A stretch of 64,000 bases of DNA from positions 1 to 64,000 of IMG/VR virus record IMGVR_UViG_3300044946_000428. The stretch is one strand, 5' to 3'. The notes under the pieces are model-generated. The model made no database searches. It had not been told where the DNA came from and saw only the letters and a program-made list of their open reading frames with translations. Both the position numbers and the translations under genes were made by a program. The DNA comes from a virus. Of the stretch, positions 12,581 through 57,963 are shown piece by piece (the stretch's first letter is position 1; every line of letters starts with the position of its first letter).

Positions 12581-13993
12581 TCAGCCACGCTCTCCGACGT
12601 AGCCGGGTCCGACGCAGTACTGGTCGCCGTCCTCGGCGATCCAGCCCTGACTGACCGCAAGGTTGATCGCGTCCTCGAGGAGTCCGCGGTCCCGATGCGC
12701 GATCGCCATCCGGATCCCGTTGTACGTCAGGCCGCCGACACCGGCGTCCGCCACCTTGCGCGCCACGTTGCCCGCAACCCGCATCTCGTTCGCCTCGGCA
12801 CTGCGCTTGGCCTTGTGCTCCTGTACGGCAAGCTGGATCTTCTCCTTGGCCTGCTCATCCTTGGAGGCCTGCGCCTCGCGCTTGGCACGTGCAACGAGGG
12901 AATCGCGCACGAGGCACGAGGACTGCCAGGTCATCTCGGCAAGCTTCCAGTCCATGTCGTCGACCGCAAACCGGCCTTCAAGCAGCGCGAGCAGCGCCGC
13001 CATCTTCGCCATCATGAACCGGCGGTGCGCATCCAAAGGCTCGAGCACCAGGTCACCGTTGCCCAGCATGACGCGCTCACGCTTGATCAGATCCCGGACC
13101 TCCGGAGGGAACTCGACGTCGATGAAGTCCTTCGTGTTCTCGATCAGCGGGTGCAGCTTCAACTGCCCCGGATGGCGCGGCGCGTCGAACGGGATCGTGG
13201 GGTCCTCGGCCCAGGACCAGAAGAACCGCTGCGGCGTGCCGCCCCCGCCGTCGGCGAGCAGCTGCGTGACGGTGGTCGGCTGGTAGCCGACGACGAGGCC
13301 GAGGTTGTAGGTCTCCGGTGCGATGTACCGGTTGCGTTCTTCGGTGGCGTTGGTCTGCCCGAGTCCCTCGCCCATGGCGGCACTGCGCAGCGCCGTCATC
13401 AACGTCGAACCCTGGCGCCCGGCGAGCTGGGTGAGCTGCTCGCCCTCGTCGCAGTAGAAGAACACGTTGTTGCGGACCTGCTTGCGCACCTTCGTCATGA
13501 CCGGCTCGCCGCGCCGGGGACCGTTCTCGTAGACCTGGCAGGTCTCCTCGTCCACGGTCCCCATGAAGACCTCGGCCATACCCTCGCCGGATCCCAATGG
13601 GATGCCGTCGCGGAACTCCGGGTCACTGGCCGGGATCAGCCCGCGCGCCCCGGCCGCGCCGGAGGACTTGCCGGCGCCGGGATTGCCGACCAGGGCGACG
13701 TACAGGTTCATCGACCCTCGGCCGAAGATCCCGGTACGCATCTTGATCCGCCAGTTCAGCAGCCCGGACAGCCGCGCCATGGTCGTGTAGAACACGACGT
13801 CGCCCGAGCGGGCGTCGGCGTGCGCGGCATCCCGGATGTGCCTGAGGGTGTCGCGGGTCGCCCAGAACTCCTCAGGCAGCAGGCCCGGCCGGTCCTCGGC
13901 CTTCGGTGTGCCGTCGATGGGCTCGCTGCTGCGGGGGTCCTGTTCGGACCACGCGTCCTGATCCTCGGGCAGCCCGTCGTTGGTGATGGTCAC
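12581..13993 (-). CDS. P-loop ATPase of the replication module (helicase-like), 470 aa
   Basis: GTG start at 13993 with GGAGG upstream, overlapping the primase gene's stop by four bases. Walker A is GNPGAGKSS at residues 103-111 and a Walker B-like VFFYCDEGE lies at 177-185. The overall look is that of the DUF3987/DnaB-like ATPases that accompany primase-polymerases in phages and actinomycete elements. The C-terminus (GGLTYNGIRMAIAHRDRG) suits a winged helix. It probably unwinds DNA for the neighbouring primase. Assignment as a helicase is by context and motif. Confidence 0.75.
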   Translation of the reverse strand: MTITNDGLPEDQDAWSEQDPRSSEPIDGTPKAEDRPGLLPEEFWATRDTLRHIRDAAHADARSGDVVFYTTMARLSGLLNWRIKMRTGIFGRGSMNLYVALVGNPGAGKSSGAAGARGLIPASDPEFRDGIPLGSGEGMAEVFMGTVDEETCQVYENGPRRGEPVMTKVRKQVRNNVFFYCDEGEQLTQLAGRQGSTLMTALRSAAMGEGLGQTNATEERNRYIAPETYNLGLVVGYQPTTVTQLLADGGGGTPQRFFWSWAEDPTIPFDAPRHPGQLKLHPLIENTKDFIDVEFPPEVRDLIKRERVMLGNGDLVLEPLDAHRRFMMAKMAALLALLEGRFAVDDMDWKLAEMTWQSSCLVRDSLVARAKREAQASKDEQAKEKIQLAVQEHKAKRSAEANEMRVAGNVARKVADAGVGGLTYNGIRMAIAHRDRGLLEDAINLAVSQGWIAEDGDQYCVGPGYVGERG

Positions 13994-14964
13994 CGCGATC
14001 CTCCGGCCTTGGCGAGGGCGCTGCGCCACGCCGCGTGGAACTCCTGGTCATAGCCGCGCTGGCTGACCGAATTGCGCGGTCGGCTCGCGCCCGCGTCGAA
14101 CATCGCGTCGCGGGCGTCGATCTCGCTCACCAGGCCCTCCGCAACCAGGTGGGCAGCTGCGGTCGTCAGCCGGCACAGGGCGTCGTGGCCGGTGTGCTCC
14201 GGCGCGCCCGCGAGCTCGTCCGCGAACTTGTCGAGCTGCTGATAACCCCAGTCCCGGCCTCGATCGGGCCGCGGCTCGCGGGGCTTGTGCGGCCGAGGCG
14301 GCTCCGGGAAGTGGCCCGTGACCTTCAGGTGGTGCAGTAGCCACTCGGGCGCCGGGCCCGGGTCCATTACGTCGGTGACGCGCCGGTAGCAGCCGCCCTT
14401 GACCGGAGTGCCCGGCGCGGGGATGTAGCCGTTGGACCCGCGGATGTCGACGAGCCAGCCGAACGAGCCGTCGGAACTGTTCTTGATCCAGGTTCCGGCG
14501 GGGACGCGCCACGTGAGGTGCGCGCCGTCGCTCTTGGTGGACACGTGGAGGCAGTCGGCGGGCCACGGCGCGCTGTAGCGCTCGAGGATGAGCGCGAAGA
14601 CGTCGGCGCCCTCGTTGACGCCGTCGATGTCCTTGTAGGCCTCGGGCTTGGGGCGTCGTTCCTTGTTGACGTCGATGTCGACCGTGACCAGGTTCGACAT
14701 GCCGTTGACGATGCCGAGGTTTGCGTCCGGGCGCCGGTCGAGCAGCCCGAGCACGTGGCCGAGGTTTGTGGACCCGGCCTGCCATCCGTGGCAGAACGCG
14801 GGTGGGTGCGGGCAGTCCTTGATGGCGTGCTGGCCGGGCGGGCACTGGCCGCAGTTGGCGAACGGCTTGCGCCGGTCGTCGATGAGGATCAGCCCGAATC
14901 CGAGGCCGATGAACGCCTCGGCGGCGCGGCGCTTACGAGGCACGTCAGTCAGCGTGGTGCTCAC
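13990..14964 (-). CDS. Bifunctional primase-polymerase (Prim-Pol, AEP family), 324 aa
   Basis: The product has the archaeo-eukaryotic primase signature: VDIDVN at 95-100 supplies the metal-binding aspartates, STKSDGAHL at 142-150 gives the His motif, and VDIRGSNGYIPAPG at 172-185 is the nucleotide-binding motif. An early CGQCPPG...HGW stretch is typical of the N-terminal Prim-Pol domain. It makes primers and copies DNA. Paired with the downstream ATPase it forms the Rep type known from primase-polymerase actinomycete conjugative elements. Confidence 0.88.
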   Translation of the reverse strand: MSTTLTDVPRKRRAAEAFIGLGFGLILIDDRRKPFANCGQCPPGQHAIKDCPHPPAFCHGWQAGSTNLGHVLGLLDRRPDANLGIVNGMSNLVTVDIDVNKERRPKPEAYKDIDGVNEGADVFALILERYSAPWPADCLHVSTKSDGAHLTWRVPAGTWIKNSSDGSFGWLVDIRGSNGYIPAPGTPVKGGCYRRVTDVMDPGPAPEWLLHHLKVTGHFPEPPRPHKPREPRPDRGRDWGYQQLDKFADELAGAPEHTGHDALCRLTTAAAHLVAEGLVSEIDARDAMFDAGASRPRNSVSQRGYDQEFHAAWRSALAKAGGSR

Positions 14965-15022
14965 GGCATCCTCCTTGGTCCGCGCGAGAGGTGGGCTAGC
15001 TCACCTGGGTGATGGAACTGAC

Positions 15023-15134: not shown

Positions 15135-15890
15135 GTGACCGACGACACGCCGCTCTACCAGCAGATCGCCAACGACCTTCGAAGAGGCGTCGGCGAGGGG
15201 AGATTCGATGCCAATGAAGGCAGGCTCCCCGGCGAGAAGGCTCTGGCCGAGCAATGGAACACGTCCACGGCAACCTCGAGCAAGGCTTTGAAGCTGCTCG
15301 AGCGTGAGGGTGTGATCGAGATCCGCAGGGGCGTCGGTGCTTTCACCCGACGCCGCAAGCCGATCATCCGCGATGCGAACGGCCGACTGTCCCGCGAGCA
15401 GTGGGGCGCGGGTAAGGCGATCTGGCAGTTCGACCTCGGCGACCACTACCCGGTGCCCGAGACTGCGGTCTACCGGGACGGCGAGGAGAAGGCGCCCAAG
15501 GTGCCGGACTTCGTACGAGCCACGCTTCAAGCCGATCGGTACCTGATCCGCGACCGCAGGTACACGGTCGAGGGCTGGCCGATCCAGGTTGCGACCTCGT
15601 TCTTCGATGCGGCAATTGCCGAGGGGACCGAGATCGCAAATCGCGACTCGGGTCCGGGTGGCGTGTACGCACGGCTCGCCGAGCTCGGGCATGAGCCGGT
15701 GGCTTTCCTTGAGCAGGTACGCAGCCGACTTCCGCTCGACGATGAGGCGAAGCGTCTGCGGATCACAACGGACAAGCCCGTTTCGGAGATCGTTCGCCAG
15801 GCGAAGACGGCTGCTGGCCGGGTCGTCGAGGTCAACGTCATGCTGTTGCTGGGCGACGCTTACGTGCTCCAATACGCCTTCTCCTCCTAA
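15135..15890 (+). CDS. GntR-family regulator with UTRA-like domain, 251 aa
   Basis: Residues 1-75 are a GntR winged helix (LYQQIANDLRRGVGEG, LPGEKALAEQWNTSTATSSK, LLEREGVIEIRRGVGAF). The C-terminal part fits a UTRA ligand-binding domain. GntR/UTRA proteins of the KorSA/KorA type control transfer and replication in actinomycete conjugative elements. The GTG at 15135 is preceded by AGAGGAG. It is divergent from the replication genes and upstream of the excisionase-like gene, whose promoter carries a palindrome it could bind. Confidence 0.82.
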   Translation: MTDDTPLYQQIANDLRRGVGEGRFDANEGRLPGEKALAEQWNTSTATSSKALKLLEREGVIEIRRGVGAFTRRRKPIIRDANGRLSREQWGAGKAIWQFDLGDHYPVPETAVYRDGEEKAPKVPDFVRATLQADRYLIRDRRYTVEGWPIQVATSFFDAAIAEGTEIANRDSGPGGVYARLAELGHEPVAFLEQVRSRLPLDDEAKRLRITTDKPVSEIVRQAKTAAGRVVEVNVMLLLGDAYVLQYAFSS

Positions 15891-15936: not shown

Positions 15937-15956
15937 TGATTACATGGACCATCCTA

Positions 15957-15970
15957 GAACCAGCTGGTTC
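15957..15970. promoter_or_regulatory. Perfect 14-bp palindromic operator
   Basis: GAACCAGCTGGTTC is a perfect palindrome ending three bases before the -35 box of the next gene. Position and symmetry fit a dimeric regulator; the adjacent GntR protein is the likely one. Confidence 0.6.
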
Positions 15971-15973
15971 CTC

Positions 15974-16003
15974 TTGACAACCATATGGAGCACGCGCTGT
16001 ACT
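15974..16003 (+). promoter_or_regulatory. Promoter of the excisionase-like gene, probably leaderless
   Basis: TTGACA (15974-15979) is a full -35 match. TGTACT (15998-16003) lies 18 bases later as -10, six bases before the ATG at 16010. No ribosome site precedes the ATG. Confidence 0.6.
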
Positions 16004-16009
16004 AGCTAT

Positions 16010-16261
16010 ATGACGACAGCGACCGACACCGCGGCGCCGGCACAGACCGACGAGTTCCTCACCGTCGGCGAGGTCGCCAAGCTGCTCCGGACCACCCCGA
16101 TGACCATCTACACCGAGATCCACGAAGGGCGACTCGACGCGATCCGCGTCGGGCGCCGGACCTACCGGATCCCCGTGGAGTCCTACAACGCGTACAAGGA
16201 GGCGCAGCGCACCACGCCCCGCGCCGAGACCGGCCAGCTCGTCCCGGCCACCGCCGCGTAA
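16010..16261 (+). CDS. Excisionase-like helix-turn-helix protein, 83 aa
   Basis: FLTVGEVAKLLRTTPMTIY followed by RLDAIRVGRRTYRIP is the MerR-like winged helix of the excisionase/HTH_17 family: recognition helix, then a basic wing. Such proteins act as recombination directionality factors of mobile elements or as small regulators. In actinomycete elements xis normally lies next to int, but no integrase follows here, so the role as Xis is uncertain. It is flanked by a palindromic operator and a strong terminator hairpin. Confidence 0.75.
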   Translation: MTTATDTAAPAQTDEFLTVGEVAKLLRTTPMTIYTEIHEGRLDAIRVGRRTYRIPVESYNAYKEAQRTTPRAETGQLVPATAA

Positions 16262-16311: not shown

Positions 16312-16333
16312 AACCAGCCAGCACCACCAGCAA

Positions 16334-16404
16334 GCCCTCGCTCCGGGTCGGGGGGCGCCGCGAACCTCCTCCTCGCGGCTCGGGTTCGAATCCCGAAGAG
16401 GGCA
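16334..16404 (+). tRNA. tRNA-like element, copy 1
   Basis: A 71-base unit folds like a tRNA. The acceptor is GCCCTC/GAGGGC with discriminator A followed by CC. There is a D-arm-like CTCC/GGGG, and an anticodon-arm-like CCGCGA/TCGCGG around a C-rich loop. The T-arm TCGGG-TTCGAAT-CCCGA is perfect. The loop lacks the invariant U33 and bases 8-9 are not canonical; the seven-base loop reads CCTCCTC, with UCC in anticodon position. It may be a degenerate or specialised tRNA or another structured RNA. It lies immediately upstream of the small gene at 16438. Confidence 0.45.
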
Positions 16405-16437
16405 CCTTGATCAGTCGGCTCGACGAAGGAGGAAGTC

Positions 16438-16683
16438 ATGCAGGTCTGGATCCTGATGGAAGGCGAGCTGTGCGAGGGCGGCACCGTCGAGGGCGTTTTC
16501 GCTTCCTGCGAGCTGGGCCACGGCGCGTTCGCGGAGCTCGCCATGAAGCTGTGCGGCTGGTCCGGGATCCGGGAGGCCGACGTGCGTGAGAACGGCGGCC
16601 TGTATTTGGAGGGCGGTCAAGTCTGGATCGAGCTGCGGCCGTTCGACGTGGTCGAGCAGTTGGCGATCGCGCCGGCCGCCTAG
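16438..16683 (+). CDS. Small hypothetical protein, 81 aa
   Basis: ATG at 16438 with GAAGGAGGAAG upstream, 33 bases after the tRNA-like element. The sequence is compact alpha/beta (MQVWILMEGELCEGG, ELAMKLCGWSG, GGQVWIELRPFDVVE). The 5' region resembles that of the gene at 16862, indicating duplicated cassettes, but the two proteins are unrelated. Function unknown. Confidence 0.6.
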   Translation: MQVWILMEGELCEGGTVEGVFASCELGHGAFAELAMKLCGWSGIREADVRENGGLYLEGGQVWIELRPFDVVEQLAIAPAA

Positions 16684-16756
16684 CGCTACCAGCACCATCC
16701 CGGGTTCCGGCGGCCATCTCCCCGGCAACCGGCACCCGGGCGCACAGCACCAGCAA

Positions 16757-16828
16757 GCCCTCGCTCCGGGTCGGGGAGCGCCGCGAACCTCCACTTCGCG
16801 GACGTGGGTTCAACTCCCACAGAGGGCA
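16757..16828 (+). tRNA. tRNA-like element, copy 2
   Basis: It is homologous to copy 1 over its whole length. Arms: acceptor GCCCTC/GAGGGC with discriminator A then CC; D-arm GCTCC/GGAGC; CCGCGAA-CCTCCAC-TTCGCGG anticodon arm with a seven-base loop; and T-arm GTGGG-TTCAACT-CCCAC. Changes from copy 1 keep pairing in the T-stem, which argues for selected RNA structure. The loop again has C in place of U33. Followed after 33 bases by the gene at 16862. Confidence 0.5.
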
Positions 16829-16861
16829 CCACGACCAGTCACTTCAACGAAGGAGGCAGCA

Positions 16862-17479
16862 ATGCAGTTCGAGCGCCGCACAATCACCCAGACCATCAAA
16901 GTCCCGACGAACACGGGCCGCACGGTCGACGAGCACACGAAGGCGTACCTGAACCGGTCGATGGACGTCATGGACTCCATGGGCATCGGCATGTGGCCGG
17001 CGATCGTGTCCGCGTCACAGTTGGGCGCCGACGACGAACTCCAGGAGATCCTCGGCGACGCCATGGTCGGCGACGAGTACGAGGACGGCGACGGCTACAG
17101 CCGCAACGGTCTGCGGCGCGTTGTGGACGACACGGACATCCCCGAGAAGCTGACCGCGTGGCGGGACGCCGCGGTGAAGGCGGCGCTTGAGGGCGCCGGA
17201 CAGGCTGCGCGCCGGTCGGCCTTCACCTCAAGCACGCCGCTAGTCGCAACCGACGAGTGGGGCCGGCCGCGCTGCCAGCAGGTCGGCGTGTACGCGGACG
17301 TGGACGAGTTCTTCCAGTGCGCGATGGTCGCGGACCACGACGGCGACTGCGACCCGCTGCCGATCCAGCCGTCCGCCGATGAGGCCGAGCGGCTCCTCGC
17401 CGACGCGTACGTCACGATCCCGGTCGCGGATGCATCCGGCCTGGCCGCGCAGATGCAGCAGCCGAACAACGAGAACTGA
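16862..17479 (+). CDS. Hypothetical protein, 205 aa
   Basis: ATG at 16862 with AAGGAGG upstream. The N-terminal half is helical with a Met-rich stretch (RSMDVMDSMGIGMW) and an acidic loop (GDEYEDGDGY). The C-terminal half has CQQVGVYADVDEFFQC and a DHDGDCDP acidic motif that might bind metal. It follows the second tRNA-like element. No family recognised. Confidence 0.6.
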   Translation: MQFERRTITQTIKVPTNTGRTVDEHTKAYLNRSMDVMDSMGIGMWPAIVSASQLGADDELQEILGDAMVGDEYEDGDGYSRNGLRRVVDDTDIPEKLTAWRDAAVKAALEGAGQAARRSAFTSSTPLVATDEWGRPRCQQVGVYADVDEFFQCAMVADHDGDCDPLPIQPSADEAERLLADAYVTIPVADASGLAAQMQQPNNEN

Positions 17480-19841: not shown

Positions 19842-20192
19842 ATGTCAAAGAGCGACAAGACCTACGACGTCACCGTCTACCGCACCGACGGCACCACCAC
19901 CCGCGAGAACGTCGCCAACGACGAGGCCCGCGAACTTCGGGACGCCGGTGGGCGCGGCCAACCGGCCGGGCCCGACACGAAGGAGAACACGGCCATGGGC
20001 ATTCTCAAGACCGCCAAGTGGGCGCTGAGCACGAAGGACGAGCGGCGCTTGAGCGAGGTGCGCGAGCATAAGGGCCGCAAGCCCGCGGGCGGGCGGCGCG
20101 ACAGGGACGTCGACTACACGAACGGGTTCATCGTCAGCGGCAAGGGCCAGGGCACCTCTTACGTCCTCGCCACGCGCCGCAACGGACGCTGA
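19842..20192 (+). CDS. Two small genes apparently fused in frame, 116 aa
   Basis: The ATG at 19842 has GAGAGGA upstream and encodes MSKSDKTYDVTVYRTDG and more. At residues about 37-44 the frame crosses the intergenic-type repeat found elsewhere between small genes (19952-19970). It then passes a second good ribosome site (AAGGAG) and an in-frame ATG at 19995, from which a 65-residue basic protein (MGILKTAKWALSTKDERR) could start on its own. The first gene has probably lost its stop codon. Either a fusion protein or two overlapping products is made. Confidence 0.5.
   Translation: MSKSDKTYDVTVYRTDGTTTRENVANDEARELRDAGGRGQPAGPDTKENTAMGILKTAKWALSTKDERRLSEVREHKGRKPAGGRRDRDVDYTNGFIVSGKGQGTSYVLATRRNGR
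19952..19970 (+). repeat. Intergenic repeat unit, copy 1
   Basis: GCGCGGCCAACCGGCCGGG, followed 11 bases later by a ribosome site and the internal ATG at 19995. Here the unit is translated as part of gene 19842-20192. Confidence 0.65.
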
Positions 20193-20249
20193 CCGCCCGG
20201 CGGGCCACGATCGCCGGCGGCCCTGAGCTCTCCCCAGGACCGCCGGTCC

Positions 20250-20268
20250 GCGCGGCCAACCGGCCGGG
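20250..20268 (+). repeat. Intergenic repeat unit, copy 2, with upstream hairpin
   Basis: GCGCGGCCAACCGGCCGGG, preceded by a hairpin of the type GCCGGCGG...CCGCCGGT (about 20214-20247) and followed by GGAGGGAATCCC and the ATG at 20294. Confidence 0.7.
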
Positions 20269-20293
20269 ACCACAACTGCACGGAGGGAATCCC

Positions 20294-20479
20294 ATGGGCC
20301 TTTTCAGCCGGAACGCCGAGGTCAGCCAGGCGCGCGCCGAGTACCGGGAGGCGAACGCCGCGCAGCAGGAGTACGCGCGCACCAGCGGCAACCGCGACGA
20401 GAACGACGCGACGTACCTCCAGCTCAACGACCGCACGAACGAGACGCTGCACGCACTCAAGGACGCCAAGAAGCGCTGA
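20294..20479 (+). CDS. Small charged helical protein, 61 aa
   Basis: ATG at 20294 behind GGAGGG. One long polar helix (SQARAEYREANAAQQEYART, DENDATYLQLNDRTNETL). No motif recognised. It is one of four small genes each preceded by the same intergenic repeat unit, so it may be an exchangeable cassette. Confidence 0.55.
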   Translation: MGLFSRNAEVSQARAEYREANAAQQEYARTSGNRDENDATYLQLNDRTNETLHALKDAKKR

Positions 20480-20531
20480 CCGGGCGGGCCGCGCCTGCCG
20501 ACAGCCCCCGGCTCAGGGGCCTGCCGGTGGG

Positions 20532-20547
20532 AGCGGCCAACCGGCCA
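20532..20547 (+). repeat. Intergenic repeat unit, copy 3, with upstream hairpin
   Basis: AGCGGCCAACCGGCCA, preceded by GCCGACAG...CTGCCGGT (about 20497-20528, imperfect stem) and followed by AAAGGAG and the ATG at 20583. Confidence 0.7.
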
Positions 20548-20582
20548 CAGCAAAACCTCAGCTCGCAAAGGAGATCAGCACC

Positions 20583-20750
20583 ATGGCGAAGAAGGAATGG
20601 ACCGACGCGGAACGCTGGGAGATCGTCAAGGAGTCCATGGACCACTCCCGCTATTACGAGTCCATCGGAGACCGCAAGAACCGCGACCTGTACAGCGAGA
20701 GCGCGAATCGAGTGCTCGACTCCATGGAGAAGGGCCGCGGGAGCAAGTAG
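20583..20750 (+). CDS. Small charged helical protein, 55 aa
   Basis: ATG at 20583 behind AAAGGAG; ends TAG at 20750. Sequence begins MAKKEWTDAERWEIVKESMD and ends VLDSMEKGRGSK; helical, with no recognised family. It follows intergenic repeat copy 3. Confidence 0.5.
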   Translation: MAKKEWTDAERWEIVKESMDHSRYYESIGDRKNRDLYSESANRVLDSMEKGRGSK

Positions 20751-20801
20751 CCCGACGGGTCACGCCTGCCGACAGTCCACAGCTCAGGGGCCTGTCGGCT
20801 C

Positions 20802-20820
20802 GCGCGGCCAACCGGCCGAG
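20802..20820 (+). repeat. Intergenic repeat unit, copy 4, with upstream hairpin
   Basis: GCGCGGCCAACCGGCCGAG, preceded by a perfect hairpin GCCGACAG...CTGTCGGC (about 20768-20799) and followed by GAAAGG and the ATG at 20845. Confidence 0.7.
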
Positions 20821-21819: not shown

Positions 21820-22740
21820 ATGCCCGGCCGGGAGAACACGCCCACCACACCGGAACTCGACGTTCCGGCCGGCGCCGTGCGCGAACTCAGCACAGGCGCC
21901 ACCCTCGCCGTCCTCTTCGCCGAAGCCATGTCATCCGTGCGGCTGTTCGGACTCGGCGAGCGCGTCGGGTTCGCCTGGTACCTCGCCTGGCTCCTGCCGG
22001 GCGCGCTCGACGTCTACGCCCTGACGATGCTCCGCTTCTCCTCCCGCATCCCAGACGGCCACCGCCTGCGCCACAAGGCCATGCGCGAGGCGATTCTCGC
22101 GCTCGCCATCACCGTCGGGTGCAACGCCCTCTACGAGGCCGTCACCGCGTTCGCCCGTCAACTGCCCGTCTGGGCACCGGGCGCGCTCTTCGTCCTCGTC
22201 TCCGCGCTCGCCCCGTTCGTCGCCGGACGGATCATCCACTTCCACGCGGGCATCGGACGCTCCACCCCCGCGAGCGCCAGGACGCCCGAGACCGCGAGCG
22301 GTAGCGACGAGCGCCAGGGCGCTGCCGAAGAGCGCGAGCACCGCGAGCCGGAAGCGCTCGTGGCCGAGAAGCGGCCGAGCGCTCCCGCCGCCCCGCAAGC
22401 GCTCGTGGTCGAGCGCAAGCCGATCGCGAGCACGGTGCGCGAGCGCGCCCTGCGCACCCCGGCCGCGAGCGTTACCGAGATCGGCGCCGCGGGCGGCCTG
22501 AGCCGCGAGCAGTGGGGCGAGCGTGGCGCCCCCGTCTACCGCGAACTCATGGACCGCGACGGCACCGGCCCCTCCGCCCCCAAGCTCCTCGACGCCCTCG
22601 TCACCCGGGGGCTGGCCCAGTCCGTCTCCCCGGCCCGCGCCCGCGTCATCCGCAAGGCGGCGGAAGACCACCTCGGCCTCACCGGCGACCCCGACGACGG
22701 CTCGGCAGGAGACGAACCCGACGCGGACGCCGTGGCCTGA
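21820..22740 (+). CDS. DUF2637-type membrane protein, Spd-like, 306 aa
   Basis: The N-terminal half has about four membrane helices (FAWYLAWLLPGALDVYALTM, AILALAITVGCNALYEAV, PGALFVLVSALAPFVAG). The wording LLPGALDVYAL matches the DUF2637 proteins of actinomycete plasmids and integrative elements. The C-terminal 150 residues are charged and end in a helical DNA-binding-like tail (RARVIRKAAEDHLGLTG). These proteins accompany the TraB translocase and are thought to help plasmid spread in mycelium. ATG at 21820 behind AAAGGGAG. Confidence 0.75.
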   Translation: MPGRENTPTTPELDVPAGAVRELSTGATLAVLFAEAMSSVRLFGLGERVGFAWYLAWLLPGALDVYALTMLRFSSRIPDGHRLRHKAMREAILALAITVGCNALYEAVTAFARQLPVWAPGALFVLVSALAPFVAGRIIHFHAGIGRSTPASARTPETASGSDERQGAAEEREHREPEALVAEKRPSAPAAPQALVVERKPIASTVRERALRTPAASVTEIGAAGGLSREQWGERGAPVYRELMDRDGTGPSAPKLLDALVTRGLAQSVSPARARVIRKAAEDHLGLTGDPDDGSAGDEPDADAVA

Positions 22741-47253: not shown

Positions 47254-47294
47254 GATGTAGAGAACGAAATCGACTTGATTTCGTTCTCTACATC
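47254..47294. repeat. Perfect 18-bp inverted repeat upstream of the HNH gene
   Basis: GATGTAGAGAACGAAATC (47254-47271) is the exact reverse complement of 47277-47294, with a five-base loop GACTT. The right arm ends two bases before the ribosome site GGAGGGAAG (47293-47303 region). TACGAT overlapping the left arm may be a -10. It could be a cleavage-target relic, an operator or an mRNA hairpin hiding the start. Confidence 0.85.
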
Positions 47295-47303
47295 GGAGGG
47301 AAG

Positions 47304-48329
47304 ATGACGGTCCACACCGGCGGAATCTGCTCGATCGAAGAGTGCCCAAAGCCCATGTTCGGCCGCACGTGGTGTTCCGCCCACTATGCGCTCTGGCGAA
47401 AGTACGGCGACCCACGGTCCCCCGTGCGCGCCTACGCGAAGCAAGGGCCCACGTGTACCGAAGACGGCTGCGACAGCCCACCCAAGTCCGGCGGCCTGTG
47501 CGTAAAGCACCGCCACCTAATGGACCGTCACGGAACGACCGAGGATTCTCGGTCGCGCCGCTTCTGGCAGAAGGTCAACAAGGACGGGCCCATTCCCGCC
47601 AGCCGACCCGAGCTGGGGCCGTGCTGGATATGGACGGGCTATGTAGCCCCAAAGACGGGATACGGCCAGTACGGCGGCCATGGGTCGGGCAGGTCGCGGC
47701 TGGTACATCGGGTCGCCTACGAGTACCTCGTTGGGCCGATACCTGAGGGCATGCACCTGGACCACCTGTGCAGGAATCGGCAATGCGTCAACGCGCTCCA
47801 GCACTTGGAGCCCGTGCCCCCGCGCGAGAACATCCTTCGCGGGGATCAGGGCGCCTTCTGGGGCTACGTTCCCGAGGTAGTGCCCCCGGCGCCCAGGAGC
47901 GAGAAGCCCGAGATCTGCTCCGAACCGGGCTGCTCGCGCCGCGCAGCCAATCCGTCCAAGCGCGGCATGTGCCGTCCCTGCTACCGGGTGTGGCTCAAGC
48001 GCGAGGACCGCCCTGTGCCCCTTACGGTCGAAGAACGGTTCTGGGCGAAGGTCGACAAGGACGGGCCCATCCCGGAGCATAAGCCCGAGTTGGGGCCCTG
48101 CTGGGTATGGACCGCAGGCATCAACTCGAAGACGGGATACGGGCGCTTCGGCGTGAAGCACGGGCACATGATGGACGCCCACCGCTATGCCTACCTCCTG
48201 GAGCACGGCTCGATTCCCGAGGGCTTCGAAGTGCACCACGAATGCCACCGTCGCCGTTGCCTCCGCATAGATCACCTACGAGCCGTGTCTCGCGCGGAGA
48301 ACGTGGCCGAGCGCAAAGTGCGCCGTTAG
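47304..48329 (+). CDS. Homing endonuclease with duplicated zinc-finger/HNH unit, 341 aa
   Basis: Two halves repeat each other. Half one has Cys-His fingers (CSIEEC...CSAH, CTEDGC...CVKH) and an HNH domain at 86-180 (CWIWTGYVAPKTGYGQYG, HLDHLCRNRQCVN). Half two has CSEPGC...CRPC and an HNH domain at 245-335 (CWVWTAGINSKTGYGRFG, VHHECHRRRC). HNH enzymes nick or cut DNA and spread as mobile genes. The ATG at 47304 follows GGAGGGAAG. It lies between the major capsid gene and the next head gene, and is related in its HNH type to the gene at 41869. Confidence 0.85.
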   Translation: MTVHTGGICSIEECPKPMFGRTWCSAHYALWRKYGDPRSPVRAYAKQGPTCTEDGCDSPPKSGGLCVKHRHLMDRHGTTEDSRSRRFWQKVNKDGPIPASRPELGPCWIWTGYVAPKTGYGQYGGHGSGRSRLVHRVAYEYLVGPIPEGMHLDHLCRNRQCVNALQHLEPVPPRENILRGDQGAFWGYVPEVVPPAPRSEKPEICSEPGCSRRAANPSKRGMCRPCYRVWLKREDRPVPLTVEERFWAKVDKDGPIPEHKPELGPCWVWTAGINSKTGYGRFGVKHGHMMDAHRYAYLLEHGSIPEGFEVHHECHRRRCLRIDHLRAVSRAENVAERKVRR

Positions 48330-48895: not shown

Positions 48896-49882
48896 GTGGT
48901 CGGCGTGGGGCTTGGAACGCCGTATGTGACAGGGGCCGTGCTTCAGAATGCCCCGACGGGATCGGCGTGGTCGTCGATTCCTACGCCGCAGTCTTCGCTT
49001 CCCGCGCAGGAGGCTGAGGCGACCAACGTGTGCTGGCGGGCCACGTCGATCGTGGACTCGTATTGCCACCAGGTTCTTCGCGCGACGGTCGCTAACGAGC
49101 AGCTGACTGGCCCGGGTGCGCCGCGCTTCGGGTTCATGCCCGGCACCGACCAGTACATGCTGACGATGCGCCAGTGGCCGATCTCGGAGATCCTCGCGAT
49201 CCAGTACGCGGCCAACCGTCCGCCGCTGACGTGGAACACGGTCGCCTCGGACAAATACCTGATCAACCATCCACTGATCGGGCAGTACACGGACACGGCG
49301 TCGGCTACCGCGCCAGACGGCGGCTGGTCGATCCAGGTGGACCCGTGCGCGATCAACGCGAGCTCGGGCGGCGTGTATGGGCCGGCGCGTGGCGGCCGGT
49401 GGCGGCGTAATGGCCTGCGGCTGTTGGTGTCGTATACGAACGGCTGGCCGCACACGTCGCTTACCGCGCCTGTCGAGGCGGATGCCACCACGATCGAGGT
49501 GGACGACGTTACCGGCTGGGTGGGGGCGTCGGGGTTCTGCTACGACGGTTCGTTCACGGAGCAGGTCGCGGTTACGGATGTCGCCGCGAACAGTCCGCTT
49601 GCGCTGCCGAACGGCGTCGGGACGGCGCAGACGGGGCCGGGCACGGTGACGTTGTCGTCGCCGCTCGCTTTCGCGCACGACGAGGGGACGCTGGTCTCTG
49701 CGCTGCCCGCGAATGTCATGCAGGCGACGATCCTGGTGGCGACGTCGCAGGTGCTGGATTCGGGGATCGAGTCGATCAGTGCGCAGACGCTGTCGGGCTC
49801 GACGTCGCTGGGCGGCACGGGCGTCGCGGACCTGATCGGGCAGATCAAGGATCTGCTCAACCCGTACCGGCGGGTGGTCTAG
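48896..49882 (+). CDS. Head-tail connector-like protein, 328 aa
   Basis: GTG at 48896. The opening region has helices and strands typical of connector/adaptor proteins (EATNVCWRATSIVDSYCHQV, MTMRQWPISEILAIQYAANR). A later insertion (TTIEVDDVTGWVGASGFC and VTLSSPLAFAHDEGTLV) looks like a small beta domain seen in actinophage structural proteins. The end is helical (VADLIGQIKDLLNPYRRVV). Assigned by position between head and tail genes and by general pattern. Confidence 0.6.
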   Translation: MVGVGLGTPYVTGAVLQNAPTGSAWSSIPTPQSSLPAQEAEATNVCWRATSIVDSYCHQVLRATVANEQLTGPGAPRFGFMPGTDQYMLTMRQWPISEILAIQYAANRPPLTWNTVASDKYLINHPLIGQYTDTASATAPDGGWSIQVDPCAINASSGGVYGPARGGRWRRNGLRLLVSYTNGWPHTSLTAPVEADATTIEVDDVTGWVGASGFCYDGSFTEQVAVTDVAANSPLALPNGVGTAQTGPGTVTLSSPLAFAHDEGTLVSALPANVMQATILVATSQVLDSGIESISAQTLSGSTSLGGTGVADLIGQIKDLLNPYRRVV

Positions 49883-50365
49883 TTGGCCCTCAACGCGGTC
49901 CAATCGTACGTATACGGCTTGATTAACGGGCTCCAGATCCCGTGGGACGGCATCCCGCCGGTCACCGCGTACATCACCCCTCCGGCGCCGGGCGCGTTCA
50001 ACGGCCCGATCGCCCTGATTGCCGGTGCCCGCGCCCAGGCATCGCGAGAGACGATGCCGCGAGGCATGGGTTTCAAGAACCTGGTCTGGACGGTCGAGGT
50101 CTACCTGCACTACCAGTCGCCGCCCACGGCGCCGAACCTGGACCAGGTCTTCCCGATCATCGTGGACGCGGTCATGGCGGTGATGTGGAGCACGACGATG
50201 CCCAAGCCGATCGAGGACCCGACGACGGGCGCGAAGTCGAGTGTGATGAGCGTCGGCGAGCGGTTCACGGTGGACTACCCGCCGGTGCGCACCGCGAACA
50301 AGTCCCAGACATACGTCTACGTGGCGCGGATCCAGTTCGAGGTCAAGGAACTGCTGCAGGCGTGA
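49883..50365 (+). CDS. Neck/tail-completion protein, 160 aa
   Basis: TTG start at 49883, directly after the previous stop. Alpha/beta pattern NAVQSYVYGLINGLQIPWDG, then RGMGFKNLVWTVEVYLHYQS and VARIQFEVKELLQA. Size and place match the stopper or tail-completion proteins of siphophages. No catalytic motif. Function by context. Confidence 0.6.
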   Translation: MALNAVQSYVYGLINGLQIPWDGIPPVTAYITPPAPGAFNGPIALIAGARAQASRETMPRGMGFKNLVWTVEVYLHYQSPPTAPNLDQVFPIIVDAVMAVMWSTTMPKPIEDPTTGAKSSVMSVGERFTVDYPPVRTANKSQTYVYVARIQFEVKELLQA

Positions 50366-50377
50366 CGGAGGTGCGCG

Positions 50378-50818
50378 GTGCCCGACTCGTTCTTCTCGGC
50401 CGCCCTGGAAGGGGATTCGTCGAAACTCGCCGGTCTCGATGTGACGGCCGAGATGGCCGCCTGGGCGAAGAAGTGGTCCTCGGTGGTCACGGGCGAACTG
50501 GCCGGCGCGGCCCCGGTGGGTCAGGGCGAGAACGCGGGCGCACTACGGGACTCGATCGGCGCACCGGCGATCGAGGCCGGTGCGGGCCGGGTGTCGATGA
50601 CGTGGACGTCGGACGCGCCGTACGCCGGGTTCGTGATCGCGGGTACGTCGCCGCATCCGATCTACCCGAAGAACGTCAAGGCGCTGCACTGGGACGACGT
50701 GTTCGCCCTGCACGTCAACCATCCGGGCACGCAGCCGGATCCGTTCCCGCAGCGCGCGATCGATCACCTGTTGCCGGAACTGACCGCGTCGCTCGCGGCA
50801 ATTTTCGAGGAGATGTAG
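50378..50818 (+). CDS. HK97 gp10-like neck protein, 146 aa
   Basis: GTG at 50378 behind ACGGAGGTG. The segment SDAPYAGFVIAGTSPHPIYP followed by VNHPGTQPDPFPQRAIDHLL is the conserved core of the HK97 gp10-like family, which acts at the head-tail joint in siphophages. N-terminal helices precede it. It is followed without gap by the next gene. Confidence 0.8.
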   Translation: MPDSFFSAALEGDSSKLAGLDVTAEMAAWAKKWSSVVTGELAGAAPVGQGENAGALRDSIGAPAIEAGAGRVSMTWTSDAPYAGFVIAGTSPHPIYPKNVKALHWDDVFALHVNHPGTQPDPFPQRAIDHLLPELTASLAAIFEEM

Positions 50819-51224: not shown

Positions 51225-52451
51225 ATGACCACGGCGGTGACGGCGAAGTTCGGTGCCCTCTCGGACACGGGGATGGCGCAGGAGGCGGTGTACGGCCAGC
51301 CGCTGTCTGCGACGACGTATTTCCCGATGACCGGCAACGGGATGAACATCGACCCGGGGCTGTTCTCCCCGACGTTGATGTTCGGGCACCGGGACAAGAA
51401 CTCGTTCGCGCTCAACGGCCAGTTCAAGAATGCGGGGACGCTGGCGGGCCCGGTGTGGCCGACGAACGCGGCCAGTCTGATTCCGGGCGCGATCGGAGCG
51501 GACGCGCAGGCCGGGTATGGGGTTGTGGGCACGGCCGCTTCGGGCTCGACGACGCTCTCGGGCGGCGTTTCGGCCGGGGCGACCACTATCACGGTGGCGT
51601 CGGCGACGGGCTTCACGACCGGGCAGATCATCCAGCTGGACGTGAACAACACGGCGACGCCGACGACCTCGGAATGCCGGAAGATCACCGTCTCGGGCAG
51701 CACGTTCACGCTGGACAAGCCGCTCGCCTACGCGCACCTGACGGGTGTGGCCGTGGTGGGGGTGCAGGCGCCGTACACGCACTCGATCCAGCAGGCCGTC
51801 GCGCTCCCGTCCTACACAGTGGAGAAGTGCCTCGGCGGCCCCGCGTCGCTGGGCGGCCAGTCGATTCTGTTCGCCGGTTCCCGCGTGAACAAGCTGTCGA
51901 TCAATGTGACGGCGACGGACGCGGAGGCGGCGCTTTCGGCGGACATGGTGGCGCAGTCGGCGGCGGTGCTCGACTCGCCGACGACCGTCGCCGTGATCAA
52001 CGAGATGCCGTACGTGTTTGCCGAGGGCACGCTCAGCCTGTTCGGGCAGACGGTGGCGCAGGCCTCCGGGTTCACCATGGACATCGACAACCACCTGATC
52101 TCGACGTACACGTTCAACCAGTCGCACAACCTGCAGTTCCTGACCCCCGGCATGCTCGAGGTCAGCGGGAAGATCGACCTGGTGTGGCAGTCGTTCGACG
52201 ACGCCACCTGGGGCTACTGGACCCAGGCGCTCAACGGCGGCCACGGCGTGCTCTCCTTCACGCTCGCGCACCCGACGAACGGCGGCTCGGTCTCCTTCTC
52301 GTGCCCGAACGTGTACATCAAGACGGATGCCGACGACCCGAAGCCCGAGGACATCGTCATGGAGTCCCTCAACTACCTGGCGTTCCTGAACTTCGCGACG
52401 AACAACACGATCTCCGCGACGATCATCGACTCCTCTTACCTGCCGCTCTGA
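51225..52451 (+). CDS. Major tail (tube) protein, 408 aa
   Basis: ATG at 51225 behind AGAAAGG. The start (GALSDTGMAQEAVYGQPLSA) and later NKLSINVTATDAEAALSADM, GTLSLFGQTVAQASGFTMDI and FLTPGMLEVSGKIDLVWQSF match the beta-barrel pattern of siphophage major tail proteins. An inserted segment at about 108-165 (TTLSGGVSAGATTITVASAT) resembles a decoration domain. Position just before the tail chaperones and tape measure agrees. Confidence 0.78.
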   Translation: MTTAVTAKFGALSDTGMAQEAVYGQPLSATTYFPMTGNGMNIDPGLFSPTLMFGHRDKNSFALNGQFKNAGTLAGPVWPTNAASLIPGAIGADAQAGYGVVGTAASGSTTLSGGVSAGATTITVASATGFTTGQIIQLDVNNTATPTTSECRKITVSGSTFTLDKPLAYAHLTGVAVVGVQAPYTHSIQQAVALPSYTVEKCLGGPASLGGQSILFAGSRVNKLSINVTATDAEAALSADMVAQSAAVLDSPTTVAVINEMPYVFAEGTLSLFGQTVAQASGFTMDIDNHLISTYTFNQSHNLQFLTPGMLEVSGKIDLVWQSFDDATWGYWTQALNGGHGVLSFTLAHPTNGGSVSFSCPNVYIKTDADDPKPEDIVMESLNYLAFLNFATNNTISATIIDSSYLPL

Positions 52452-53309: not shown

Positions 53310-56300
53310 GTGGCGGACTCGGTCACCGTCCTGCTGATGCTCGAGGCGATCGACAAGGCCTCGCAGATCATCGAGCGGATCTCGGGGAAGCTCGACGCGC
53401 TCGGCGAGAAGGCGCAGGCCGCAGCCGACAAGGCCGGCATGACCGGCGAGGAGCTTGAGGCCGCGCAGGTCAAGGCCGAGGCTGCCGCGAACGCGTATGC
53501 CGCCGCGGTGGACGAGCAGGACGCGGCGCAGGCCCGGCTGCTCGAGTCCACGCAGGCCGTCAGGGACGCGCAGAGTGCGGCGGCCGAGTCTGCGGCCCGG
53601 CTCGCGGAGGCGGATGCGGCCGTGGCCTCCGGAGTGGAGGAGGCGGCGACCGCCGCGCAGGCCTCGTATGCGGACATCGCGGCTGCCGCCGACGCGTCGT
53701 CGGCGGCAGTGAAGGCCGCGATCGCCGAGCAGGTCGTCGCGCTCGATGCGCTCGGTGTCGCGCAGAAGGAAGCGGCGGCGCGGGCGGATGAGTCGGCGGC
53801 GGCGCAGGACGCGGCGTCCACCTCGACGGACCTGTCTGGGATGGCTCTCAAGGGCCTGGCTATCGGGGCCGCGGCGACGGCGGCGGCTGTGGCGGGCATC
53901 GGCTACGAGTCCGTCAAGGCTGCGGCGAACTTCCAGTCAGCCACCACGGTGCTGGTGACGTCCGGGGGCGAGACTGCGCAGAACATCGAGATGGTGCGTC
54001 AGGGGATTCTGGGCCTGGCCTCATCCACGGGTACCGCGACGCAGCAGTTGATCAACGGCATGTACCTGATCGGCAGCGCGGGCTACACGGGCGCACAGGG
54101 CCTGAACGTCCTCAGGGCCGCGGCGCAGGGCGCGAAAGCGGAGAACGCGGACCTCGGCACCGTGTCCAACGCGCTGACCACCGTCATGCACGACTACGGA
54201 CACGGTGCCTCGAGCGCGACGGCCGACATGGATGAACTGATCACCACGGTCCAGAACGGCAAGACCACCACGGAGGCGCTCGCGTCGTCGCTTTCCACGG
54301 TGCTGCCGATCGCCGCCAAGGCCGGGCTGAATTACGCGCAGGTCGGCGGCGCGCTGGCGACGATGACCGCCGAGGGCATGAGCGCGCAGAACGCGTCGCG
54401 CGACCTGGCGAACACGATCACCAATCTGCAGGGCCCGAGCCAGATCGCATCCAAGGAGATGGCCCAGATGGGCCTGAACTCCAACGACCTGTCTAAGAAC
54501 CTCGGCAAGGTCGGGCTCGCCGGGACGATCGAAGAGGTCACGAACGCGATCCAGCAGCACATGGGCCCGGCCGGCCTGGTCGTGGTCAGCGCGTTCCAGA
54601 ACTCGGCCGCCGCGACGCAGAACCTTCAGACGATCATGTCGAAGATGCCGGCGGACCTGAAGTCCCTGGCGACCGAGATCGTGAACGGCACGATCAGCAC
54701 CAAGGATCTGCGGACCGCGACCTACGGACTCAACACCGAGCAGGCGAAGCAGATCAGCCAGCTCGAGACTGTGGTCGGGCAGACCCACGAGTTCAACAGC
54801 GCCCTGACGTCCGGGACCCCGGCGCAGATCACGGCCGCGAAGGCCCTGCAGACGATGCTCGGGGGCCAGGTCGGGCTGAACTCGGCCCTGATGATCTCCT
54901 CCGACAAGTACAGGACGGTGACCGGCGACACGAACGCGATTGCCGCGGCCGGTAAGACGGCGGGGGCGAACGTCGAGGGCTGGGCCGAGATCCAGGGCAA
55001 CATGAATCAGAAACTTGACGAGCTCAGGCAGACGGTGGAGGCCGCCTGCATCCAGCTCGGTACGGCGCTGCTGCCGATGGTCACGAAGATCCTCGACGTC
55101 GTCATGAAGATCGTGGCGCCGATCGCGGACTGGATCGAGCACAACAAGACGTTGGCCGCCGGGATCCTGCTGGTCGTCGGCGGCCTGGCGATCCTGGTGA
55201 CGACGATGGTCATAGTCGCCAAGATCATAAAGACGGTGCGCGATGCGTGGAGCATACTCGGCAGCGCACTCGACCTGGTTACGGGCAAGACCGCCAGGGC
55301 CGCTGCCGCAGCCAAGGCCGCCGCCGCGGAATCGGAGGCGGCCGGGGAAGGGGTCGCCGCGGAAGCCGCCGCGGCCGACGCCGCCAGCGGGAGCATGGAG
55401 GCGCTCGCGGAGACCACCGAGGCCGCCGCGACGGCAGCGGACGACAGTGCGGTCGCGGCCGACGCGTCGGCGCTGGCGTGGGTCCGCTCGGGGCTCGCCG
55501 CCGCGGCTTCGGCGGTGAAATTCGTTGTGATGCAGGCCGCGCAGCTTGCCGCGGCAGCGGCTTCGAAGGCCGTCGCGGCCGCGCAGTGGCTGGTGAACGC
55601 GGCGATGAAAGCGGACCCGATCACCCTGATCATCATCGCGATCGTGGCGCTGGTCGCGGCGTTCGTCCTGCTGTGGAACGAGTCGGCGGGGTTCCGCGAC
55701 TTCTGGATCGGCGCCTGGTCGGACATCGAGGGCGCGGCCGAGGCAGTCTGGCGTTTCCTCGAGACCGTCTGGGCCGCCATTGTCGCAGGGTTCGAACTCG
55801 TTGTCGACGGCGCCGAGAGCGCGGTCTCGTGGTTCGAATCGCTCCCCGGCAAGTTCGCCGCGTGGATGGCCGGCGTCCTGAGTGCGGTGGCCGGCGACGG
55901 CGCGAAAATCCTCTCGTGGTTCACGTCCCTGCCGGGGGAGATCCTCTCGGCGCTCGGCAGCCTCGGAGGGCTGCTCGTCAGGGCGGGCCAAGATGTGATC
56001 TCCGGACTGCTCAACGGGATCAAGAACATCGCGGCGTCGGTAACATCGTTCTTCGCCGGCATCCCGGGCTACATCGAGGGGTTCTTCGCGGGCGCGGGGA
56101 CGTGGCTGTTCGACATCGGCAAAAGCATCCTCGAGGGCCTGGTCAACGGGGCGAAGTCCGCGTGGAGCGATGTGACGGGGTTCTTCGGCGGCATCGGATC
56201 GGCGATCATCAATATGAAGGGGCCGCCGGAGTACGACAGGGTGATGCTGGTCGGCAACGGGCAGTTGATCATGCAGGGCCTTATGGCCGGGTTCGACTCC

Positions 56301-56570
56301 CAGGTCCCCGCGCTGCACGCGAAACTCGGATCGATCACCACAAGCATCAAAACGGACATGACCGGGCCGCAGAACCTCAGCCAATCGTTCGCCGCGGGGC
56401 TCGGCGGGGCCGCTTCGCCGGGCGCCGGCGGCGGCACGCTCGTGCAGCAGACGTTCACCGGGAACTACCTGATGTCCGACTCGGACATGACCAAGTTCGC
56501 GAACTTCGTCGGGAACAAAGTCGTCACGCAGCTCGCGCCGCAGGGCGGCGTCAAGACGTTGCTGAGGTGA
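53310..56570 (+). CDS. Tape measure protein, 1086 aa
   Basis: GTG at 53310 behind GGAGGTG. Longest gene of the tail module. Residues 1-190 are Ala/Glu coiled coil. The middle has the TP901-type tape measure segment (LASSTGTATQQLINGMYLIG, SAGYTGAQGLNVLRAAAQGA, MTAEGMSAQNASRDLANTIT). Membrane-like helices lie at about 615-640 and 770-790. The C-terminal third is Gly/Trp/Phe-rich. It sets tail length and is ejected with the DNA. No lytic transglycosylase motif is seen. Confidence 0.9.
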   Translation: MADSVTVLLMLEAIDKASQIIERISGKLDALGEKAQAAADKAGMTGEELEAAQVKAEAAANAYAAAVDEQDAAQARLLESTQAVRDAQSAAAESAARLAEADAAVASGVEEAATAAQASYADIAAAADASSAAVKAAIAEQVVALDALGVAQKEAAARADESAAAQDAASTSTDLSGMALKGLAIGAAATAAAVAGIGYESVKAAANFQSATTVLVTSGGETAQNIEMVRQGILGLASSTGTATQQLINGMYLIGSAGYTGAQGLNVLRAAAQGAKAENADLGTVSNALTTVMHDYGHGASSATADMDELITTVQNGKTTTEALASSLSTVLPIAAKAGLNYAQVGGALATMTAEGMSAQNASRDLANTITNLQGPSQIASKEMAQMGLNSNDLSKNLGKVGLAGTIEEVTNAIQQHMGPAGLVVVSAFQNSAAATQNLQTIMSKMPADLKSLATEIVNGTISTKDLRTATYGLNTEQAKQISQLETVVGQTHEFNSALTSGTPAQITAAKALQTMLGGQVGLNSALMISSDKYRTVTGDTNAIAAAGKTAGANVEGWAEIQGNMNQKLDELRQTVEAACIQLGTALLPMVTKILDVVMKIVAPIADWIEHNKTLAAGILLVVGGLAILVTTMVIVAKIIKTVRDAWSILGSALDLVTGKTARAAAAAKAAAAESEAAGEGVAAEAAAADAASGSMEALAETTEAAATAADDSAVAADASALAWVRSGLAAAASAVKFVVMQAAQLAAAAASKAVAAAQWLVNAAMKADPITLIIIAIVALVAAFVLLWNESAGFRDFWIGAWSDIEGAAEAVWRFLETVWAAIVAGFELVVDGAESAVSWFESLPGKFAAWMAGVLSAVAGDGAKILSWFTSLPGEILSALGSLGGLLVRAGQDVISGLLNGIKNIAASVTSFFAGIPGYIEGFFAGAGTWLFDIGKSILEGLVNGAKSAWSDVTGFFGGIGSAIINMKGPPEYDRVMLVGNGQLIMQGLMAGFDSQVPALHAKLGSITTSIKTDMTGPQNLSQSFAAGLGGAASPGAGGGTLVQQTFTGNYLMSDSDMTKFANFVGNKVVTQLAPQGGVKTLLR

Positions 56571-56574
56571 CATC

Positions 56575-57963
56575 GTGGTCGCCGCCCCGCACCTGACCCT
56601 GACCGTGACGCCGCCGGGCGGCTCGCCCACCGACTACACCACGCACCTCGCGTGGGCGGGCGCCCAGCAGCAGATGACGGTCACGCAGAATTTCGGGCGT
56701 CAGGGCGACACGGCGACGCTCGCGATCATCGAGGACTACGCCGCAGCAGGCACCCCGACCATCGCGATCCACGGCATGTCGCAGGTCTCGCTCTACGACA
56801 ACACCGCCGCGGCGAGTCTGTTCGCGGGGGTCGCGAACTCCGTGACCCAATCCGTGATCGTCAACAAGGCGCTCAACGAGTGGGACCTCGGCGCCGTCGA
56901 CTACACCCTGTACGCCGACAACAAAGACGTCCACGGAATCTTCTACGGCTGGACCGTCGATCAGATCGTCGTCAGCCTGGTCCAGCAGGCGAACTGCGGG
57001 ATCACCGCCGCGACGGTCGCGAACGGCGGGTACGTCGAGCCCGGCCCCCAGCTGGCCAGCTACGTGCTCAATTTCAACCCGCTGTCCACGGCGTGGCGGC
57101 AGCTTGCGAACCTCGCCGGCTCCACCACCCCGTGGGGCTGGTATGTGGACCAGAACCTCGAATTGCATTTCTTCCCCGGCACCGAGGCGCTCTCCTCCGG
57201 GGTCACGTTCACCACCTCCGCGACCGCGTCCGGTTCCCTGACCGAGGGCCACATCCTCCTCGACAGCCAGAACGCCTACCAGCAGGACGGCACCAGCCTC
57301 TCGAACGTGATCCTCGTGCAGGGCGCGAACCAGACCATCTCCTACGGGTCCACGACCAGCACCCCGACGGATACGTGGCTCGCCGACGGCACGGCCTCGG
57401 CGTGGCCGCTGCGCTACACCGTCTCCGGCACGCCCGTCCTGCACATCGGCGGCGTCGTCACGGCCGTCGTGGTGGCGACGTCCGGGACGACCGCGTCCGG
57501 GCCCTGGGTCGTCGAACAGAACTCGATCGGCCAGTATTTCCTGGTCGCCGCGACCGCCCCGGCCGCGGGCACCGAGATCCAGATCTGGTACACCTACCTC
57601 GTGCCGGTGGTCGCGCAGGCCTCCGACCAGGCGTCGATCAGCGAGTACACGGGGCCGAACGGCGGGGTCTACTCCCAGTTCGTCTCGGACTCGTCGCTCA
57701 CGACCGTGCCGATGGCGCTCGCCAGGGCGATGCAGATGCGCTCCGAGTACGCGTTCGTCGTCGAACGCTTCACGTTCAACACGTCCCCCGACTTCATCGG
57801 GTGGGTGCGCGCGGGCTGGACGTGCGTCGTGGTCGACATGTTCGCCTACGACATCCAGAACAGTGTTTTCGGACTCACGGACACGTTCGTGATCGTTGCG
57901 AACACGGTCACGTTCGGCGACGGCGGCTACCGGTCGATGCAGGTCACGGCCGTGCGTATCTAA
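56575..57963 (+). CDS. Tail hub/baseplate protein (Dit- or gp27-like), 462 aa
   Basis: GTG at 56575, five bases after the tape measure stop. Beta-rich, with a start like tail hub proteins (APHLTLTVTPPGGSPTDYTT) and blocks such as VHGIFYGWTVDQIVVSLVQQ and WRQLANLAGSTTPWGWYVDQ, a pattern found in baseplate hub proteins that bind the tail tip. Order after the tape measure supports the assignment; which hub protein it is remains open. Confidence 0.68.
   Translation: MVAAPHLTLTVTPPGGSPTDYTTHLAWAGAQQQMTVTQNFGRQGDTATLAIIEDYAAAGTPTIAIHGMSQVSLYDNTAAASLFAGVANSVTQSVIVNKALNEWDLGAVDYTLYADNKDVHGIFYGWTVDQIVVSLVQQANCGITAATVANGGYVEPGPQLASYVLNFNPLSTAWRQLANLAGSTTPWGWYVDQNLELHFFPGTEALSSGVTFTTSATASGSLTEGHILLDSQNAYQQDGTSLSNVILVQGANQTISYGSTTSTPTDTWLADGTASAWPLRYTVSGTPVLHIGGVVTAVVVATSGTTASGPWVVEQNSIGQYFLVAATAPAAGTEIQIWYTYLVPVVAQASDQASISEYTGPNGGVYSQFVSDSSLTTVPMALARAMQMRSEYAFVVERFTFNTSPDFIGWVRAGWTCVVVDMFAYDIQNSVFGLTDTFVIVANTVTFGDGGYRSMQVTAVRI

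Follow-up and report, generated by a model that had tools for sequence, protein, structure and literature searches.

A probable temperate siphovirus-type element of actinomycetes carrying a plasmid-type cassette for double-stranded DNA transfer

Can a siphovirus-type phage carry the machinery by which plasmids move double-stranded DNA (dsDNA) between cells, or do such genes, when found beside each other, belong to two elements? The question is raised by the first 64 kb of the 111,156 bp record IMGVR_UViG_3300044946_000428 (hereafter the window, 64,000 nucleotides), in which a cassette centred on a TraB/FtsK-family translocase lies upstream of phage packaging, head and tail genes. A sequence-only reading had proposed that both modules form a single element able to spread as particles and by mycelial DNA transfer, and the Prim-Pol, GntR, TraB and virion genes on which it relied were all recovered by Pfam, phrog, tblastn and profile matches. 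Judging from gene content and gene order, we put the chances at roughly three in four that this is a single temperate siphovirus-type element from an actinomycete, probably of streptomycete type, which carries a plasmid-type dsDNA transfer cassette; a double mode of spread, in particles and through DNA transfer from cell to cell, appears plausible.

One element or two

The two modules meet between TraB and the large terminase subunit (TerL), and this region could be compared with G006, an independent 127 kb IMG/VR metagenome record (IMGVR_UViG_3300005436_000501). Percentages are identities to the G006 counterpart unless stated otherwise.

21820-22740, plus strand: membrane protein in the SpdB (DUF2637) slot; the same-slot G006 gene is DUF2637 (E 7.4e-20)
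22865-23440, plus strand: first transfer-adjacent membrane protein; 42%, order kept
23451-24650, plus strand: second transfer-adjacent protein, membrane/coiled, 399 amino acids; 47%
about 24679-26733, plus strand: TraB/FtsK-family dsDNA translocase with N-terminal membrane segments, P-loop and C-terminal winged-helix-like region
27354-28004 (start approximate), plus strand: YdjM-like membrane protein (PF04307, E 2.9e-21); 63%
28189-29007, plus strand: phage-type protein of the Tra-TerL junction (phrog_1467, E 1.6e-22; phrog_1568, DNA-binding, E 3.1e-18); 70%, and 67% to G013
33421-33906, plus strand: conserved pre-terminase protein; 56%, and 52% to Streptomyces NRRL S-350
36347-38509, plus strand: TerL (phrog_38, E 3.9e-102; Terminase_6C), its true start lying downstream of the open reading frame start
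38522-41872, plus strand: portal protein with an embedded NUDIX domain

TraB of G006 is 53% identical to that of the window, and colinearity of the two records extends from 22.8 kb as far as the portal. It takes in the junction genes at 28.2, 30.9, 32.6 and 33.4 kb, and amino acid identities in the colinear part are 27-70%. Further upstream G006 carries DUF2637, GntR and then, on the opposite strand, Prim-Pol and helicase, which matches the window layout and gives the order helicase, Prim-Pol, divergent GntR, DUF2637, two membrane proteins, TraB, YdjM, junction genes, TerL and portal. Since an independent record keeps both the gene order and the junction, an assembly chimera or chance abutment is very unlikely. 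The gap from TraB to TerL measures 9.6 kb; inspection of 28-36 kb revealed no host housekeeping gene, in agreement with the earlier claim that none separates the modules, and the protein at 28189-29007 matches phage families.

Integration genes and the putative attachment site lie just beyond the window:

contig 65697-65722: attP core, a 26 bp exact match to the 3' end of tRNA-Cys
contig 65853-67265: tyrosine integrase

The attP core occurs once in the contig, 130 bp upstream of the integrase, and its 26 bp match is present in all eight actinomycete genomes searched (inside tRNA-Cys in the four loci read). Since attP is internal, unsplit and single, the record represents the unintegrated form. 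The analysis detected no att site separating the Tra module from the virion module. Two tandem tRNA-like copies with repeat blocks of 57-65 nt stand at window 16322-16446 and 16745-16870, one of them called tRNA-Gly(TCC) by ARAGORN; the tRNA-like spots at 16.3-16.8 kb and at 29.4 kb were considered as att sites and rejected, having no exact tRNA match in the eight genomes. No flanking chromosome was recognised on the contig, its 111,156 bp show no terminal overlap, and the remainder of the record, which was read as well, is phage-like throughout.

The sequence-only reading had suggested looking for a related genome with both modules together and for an att pair or host genes at 28-36 kb that would speak for separate elements. 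The former exists in G006, where the block from helicase to portal is kept; neither of the latter was found, and a single attP/integrase pair is present on the molecule. The view that the window is one element is thus supported by comparative sequence evidence.

The transfer cassette

Translation of 24325-26733 yields an intact protein that starts near 24679 and has hydrophobic N-terminal segments and the P-loop GASGTGKS. By tblastn it matched 55 actinobacterial plasmid records (Streptomyces, Kitasatospora, Nonomuraea, Micromonospora and Embleya; best E about 1e-40), and TraB queries matched none of 50,697 phage records, those of Streptomyces phages included. No Pfam model, PF01580 included, matched TraB alone; a family profile of nine members reached FtsK structures in PDB at E 8.8e-13, and the assignment as an FtsK/SpoIIIE-type Tra protein rests on homology and this profile. 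For proteins of this class, the model established in streptomycetes is dsDNA transfer of the TraB type (PMC3218068; PMC3583192).

The membrane proteins beside TraB had been described as Spd-like. One does occupy the slot that holds DUF2637 in G006; the window protein itself (21820-22740) matched no Pfam model, and the label is one of position. The 23451-24650 product has a weak profile match to the same-slot proteins of Kitasatospora/HUAS (hhalign prob 57), and homology of the membrane proteins to same-slot plasmid proteins could not be shown.

Virion, lysis and other phage genes

Downstream of TerL and the portal, the record continues with the following:

43215-45620, plus strand: head maturation protease (phrog_3017, E 2.1e-13; Peptidase_S78_2)
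45705-47195, plus strand: probable major capsid protein, judged from its place and its conservation (phrog_13692, of unknown function, E 4.5e-47)
48896-50818, plus strand: head-tail connector genes (phrog_442; phrog_5 and HK97-gp10_like)
51225-52451, plus strand: minor tail protein family, possible tail tube (phrog_290, E 2.7e-32)
53310-56570, plus strand: tape measure protein (phrog_2723, E 9.9e-62)
59570-61855, plus strand: probable tail tip or fibre protein with kelch-like and carbohydrate-binding regions
contig 64235-65488: endolysin
contig 70.5-72.5 kb: YqaJ exonuclease and ERF recombinase
contig 88.7-90.8 kb: DnaC-like loader and DnaB
contig 99 kb: SSB

With terminase, portal, protease, tape measure, endolysin and integrase all present, the temperate siphophage set is complete. 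The protein in the capsid slot is 76-85% identical to that of several relatives and 76-81% in several Streptomyces genomes. The phage block had been placed at 36.3-58 kb; its TerL, portal, protease, minor tail and tape measure genes are well supported, and virion and lysis genes run on past 58 kb to the endolysin. The same reading put all modules on one strand, which holds from GntR onward and fails for Prim-Pol and the helicase, both on the minus strand.

Some genes stand apart from this set. The NUDIX domain occupies residues 687-807 of the 1116 amino acid portal polypeptide (E 8.2e-19), a Vsr/DUF559-like and HNH protein is encoded on the minus strand at window 41869-43176, and an HNH endonuclease lies among the head genes (47247-48329, plus strand). 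A TnpB-like transposase gene is found at the left contig end (window 85-1080), and a TROVE/Ro60-like protein (contig 103932-105602; L004/L005) adjoins tRNA-Gln and tRNA-Arg genes.

Replication unit and candidate origin

Upstream of the transfer cassette the window carries a replication and regulatory region:

12397-12578, no strand: candidate iteron origin, with copies of CGTACATG in both orientations around an AT-rich stretch, beside the helicase gene
12581-14029, minus strand: replication helicase/primase partner, DUF3987-like with Walker A (DUF3987 E 6.2e-6, under the cut-off)
13990-14964, minus strand: Prim-Pol primase-polymerase (PF09250, E 6.5e-21)
15135-15890, plus strand: GntR-UTRA (KorSA-like) regulator (PF00392 and PF07702)
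15944-16261, plus strand: HTH_17 (excisionase-like) protein (PF12728, E 7.2e-10)

The helicase partner matches phrog_11515 (polymerase/primase, E 2.6e-43) and is 41% identical over 438 amino acids to that of PhiNon1, an element of Nonomuraea gerenzanensis. Since phage polymerase/primase families are among the matches of both Prim-Pol and its partner, the unit could serve either plasmid or lytic replication. GntR is divergent from this pair, and the corresponding place is held by a GntR gene in G006 and in G008, a close virion relative (36% in G008).

Seven copies of CGTACATG with at most one mismatch lie at 12397-12578; nowhere else in the 111 kb contig does any 8-mer recur at least five times inside 200 bp. 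Arrays of like design and in the same place, built from other iteron sequences, are present in G006 (TATGGACA-type) and PhiNon1 (TGTGGACATG-type), and we regard the array as a candidate origin. As to phage-plasmid traits, the Prim-Pol/helicase pair, the iteron-like origin and an integrase are thus present, and partition genes were not seen in the unclosed 111-kb contig.

A different repeat, GGCCAACCGGCC, has four exact copies about 270-300 bp apart in the leaders of small genes (window 19956-20817), and seven copies in the window at one mismatch or fewer, versus 1.2 expected; it is possibly an operator or regulatory repeat.

Relatives and module histories

Viral contigs with a TerL relative are numerous, and such relatives also occur in genomes of Streptomyces, Microbispora, Sphaerisporangium and Nocardioides. 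In the TerL tree the window groups with L006, L043 and G008, and G006 with Microbispora/Sphaerisporangium phages; in the TraB tree the window and G006 are sisters (100/100), and pSLE1, pSAM1, S. decoyicus and G003 form a separate 100/100 clade. G003 thereby pairs a pZL12-type TraB (100/100) with a window-like TerL. G008, with a TerL that matches in pieces of 66-86% identity, retains a GntR and junction genes. Given these differing groupings in the window, G006 and G003, and G008 with no TraB detected, the Tra and virion modules appear to be exchangeable.

FtsK-family ATPases also lie some 8-12 kb upstream of TerL in G011, G013 and G017, where assignment to TraB is less sure. Among TerL relatives, a weak match to the TraB profile (E about 1e-9 to 1e-13) did not by its score alone count as a TraB, because ordinary chromosomal FtsK-/EccC-sized proteins score alike. 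Searches of viral contigs for further TraB relatives gave none with the window protein and only G006 with an alignment query, a scan with the junction genes returned only one 16-residue match, and among 394 Streptomyces genomes the same TerL turned up only in the one on which the search was centred. We consider it conceivable, if still rather doubtful, that TraB-type cassettes are a recurrent, exchangeable part of large actinomycete phages that form a widespread family, in whose life cycle spread by mycelial DNA translocation would be regular. On this view the position ahead of TerL would be retained and both the TraB type and the virion type swapped, the window/G006 TraB accompanying two virion types and a pZL12-type TraB (G003) a window-like TerL.

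In L044 and L043, the closest TerL relatives, several hundred inserted bp, which may represent an intein or an intron, interrupt the TerL match. A 154 kb contig of Streptomyces NRRL S-350 (G046:C13; L190, L128) carries a TraB (E 5.5e-102) about 68 kb from an opposite-strand TerL relative and may be another element of the TraB/virion kind.

Comparison with known plasmid-phages

The novelty implied by the sequence-only reading, that virion genes and TraB normally do not occur together, was too strong: in at least 19 public Streptomyces plasmid records of PLSDB (the overlap of the TraB and TerL match lists) TraB lies on the strand of TerL and 1-3.5 kb ahead of it. Plasmid-phages that pair TraB with virion genes are already known, namely the pZL12/PhiZL12 type and PhiNon1, and by sequence the window element is a different lineage.

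The pZL12 type comprises pZL12, pSLE1, pSAM1 and the S. decoyicus NBC_01584 plasmid (about 84-94 kb). The title of the pZL12 report and papers citing it speak of replication, transfer and a plasmid/lytic phage cycle, and pSLE1 is described as syntenic with pZL12. The window element shares with pSLE1, pSAM1 and the S. decoyicus plasmid the order of small genes, membrane proteins, TraB, terminase and head genes, and GntR with pSLE1 and pSAM1. However, its TraB is only 22-23% and its TerL about 29-31% identical to theirs, it falls outside both 100% supported clades, its TraB-TerL gap is 9.6 kb rather than 1-3.5 kb, and its unclosed 111 kb show no ParA motif, whereas pSLE1 and pZL12 have ParA/ParB.

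PhiNon1, which occurs in circular form and also integrated at tRNA-Val (PMC5431353), resembles the window element in its helicase (41%), TraB (33%), iteron array by the helicase gene, integrase, tRNA integration and virion genes; it differs in having no TerL match to the window, another gene order, tRNA-Val as its site and a size of 59 kb. Actinomycete integrative and conjugative elements (AICEs) of the Prim-Pol class share a tyrosine integrase at a tRNA, Prim-Pol replication and an FtsK-type Tra (PMC3218068), but the window element has in addition a full virion and lysis set. Even G006 departs from it in the virion module, with TerL in another clade and a portal only about 27% identical.

Alternative explanations and a possible life cycle

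Several observations weigh against a single temperate phage with a transfer cassette. A search for a TRS/clt-like cluster of 8 bp repeats as in pSVH1 gave none, copies of GACCCGGA being scattered; the AlphaFold model of TraB (two sequences) was unusable, with a mean pLDDT of 36; and no ParA-type Walker motif occurs in the 111 kb, the contig being unclosed, so that parA could sit in a stretch missing from it. The TraB and TerL trees disagree for the window and G006, such that the pairing is not strictly vertical, and no TraB was detected in G008.

The cassette might be the phage's own but serve DNA spread or segregation across septa within the mycelium of a lysogen rather than conjugation between strains, which we consider unlikely. 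In its favour, streptomycete Spd and TraB proteins act, among other things, in spread within the mycelium, no clt-like cluster was seen, and other TerL relatives have diverse FtsK-family ATPases, suggestive of a phage-related role. Against this, the closest TraB relatives outside viral contigs sit on Streptomyces and Kitasatospora plasmids, and the tra locus of the plasmid-phage pZL12 is reported to work in transfer.

Two abutting elements (an AICE or plasmid beside a prophage) or a chimera would accord with the discordant phylogenies, with Tra on plasmids that have no listed terminase match and with virion genes in genomes where no linked TraB was found, and are rejected as most improbable given the order and junction conserved in G006, the single internal attP and the lack of an att site between the modules. 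A decaying hybrid with a functionless relic of a Tra block, to which the lack of a TraB in G008 might point, is similarly far-fetched, as the TraB reading frames of the window and G006 are intact, have Walker motifs and share 53% identity.

We thus favour a single temperate phage with a transfer cassette, and spread by both routes is fair to infer because published plasmid-phages such as pZL12 combine a locus for transfer with lytic growth as a phage. Int would integrate the element at the 3' end of tRNA-Cys, or it could be maintained as an episome by Prim-Pol and helicase replication, with GntR repressing the transfer genes. TraB and its adjacent proteins may then pump unprocessed dsDNA between hyphae or across septa, and upon induction TerL would package the same DNA into siphovirus particles that the endolysin frees. 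Within this phage family the Tra cassette would be an exchangeable module.

If this is correct, a virus with two routes would escape the limit of each, i.e., receptor range for particles and contact for mycelial transfer. The lineage would add to the dual-mode case of pZL12 an integrating form with a defined attP, and a candidate origin of one design common to three elements (the window element, G006 and PhiNon1). With transfer and virion modules exchanged independently, why phages keep a conjugation motor would become a directly testable question.

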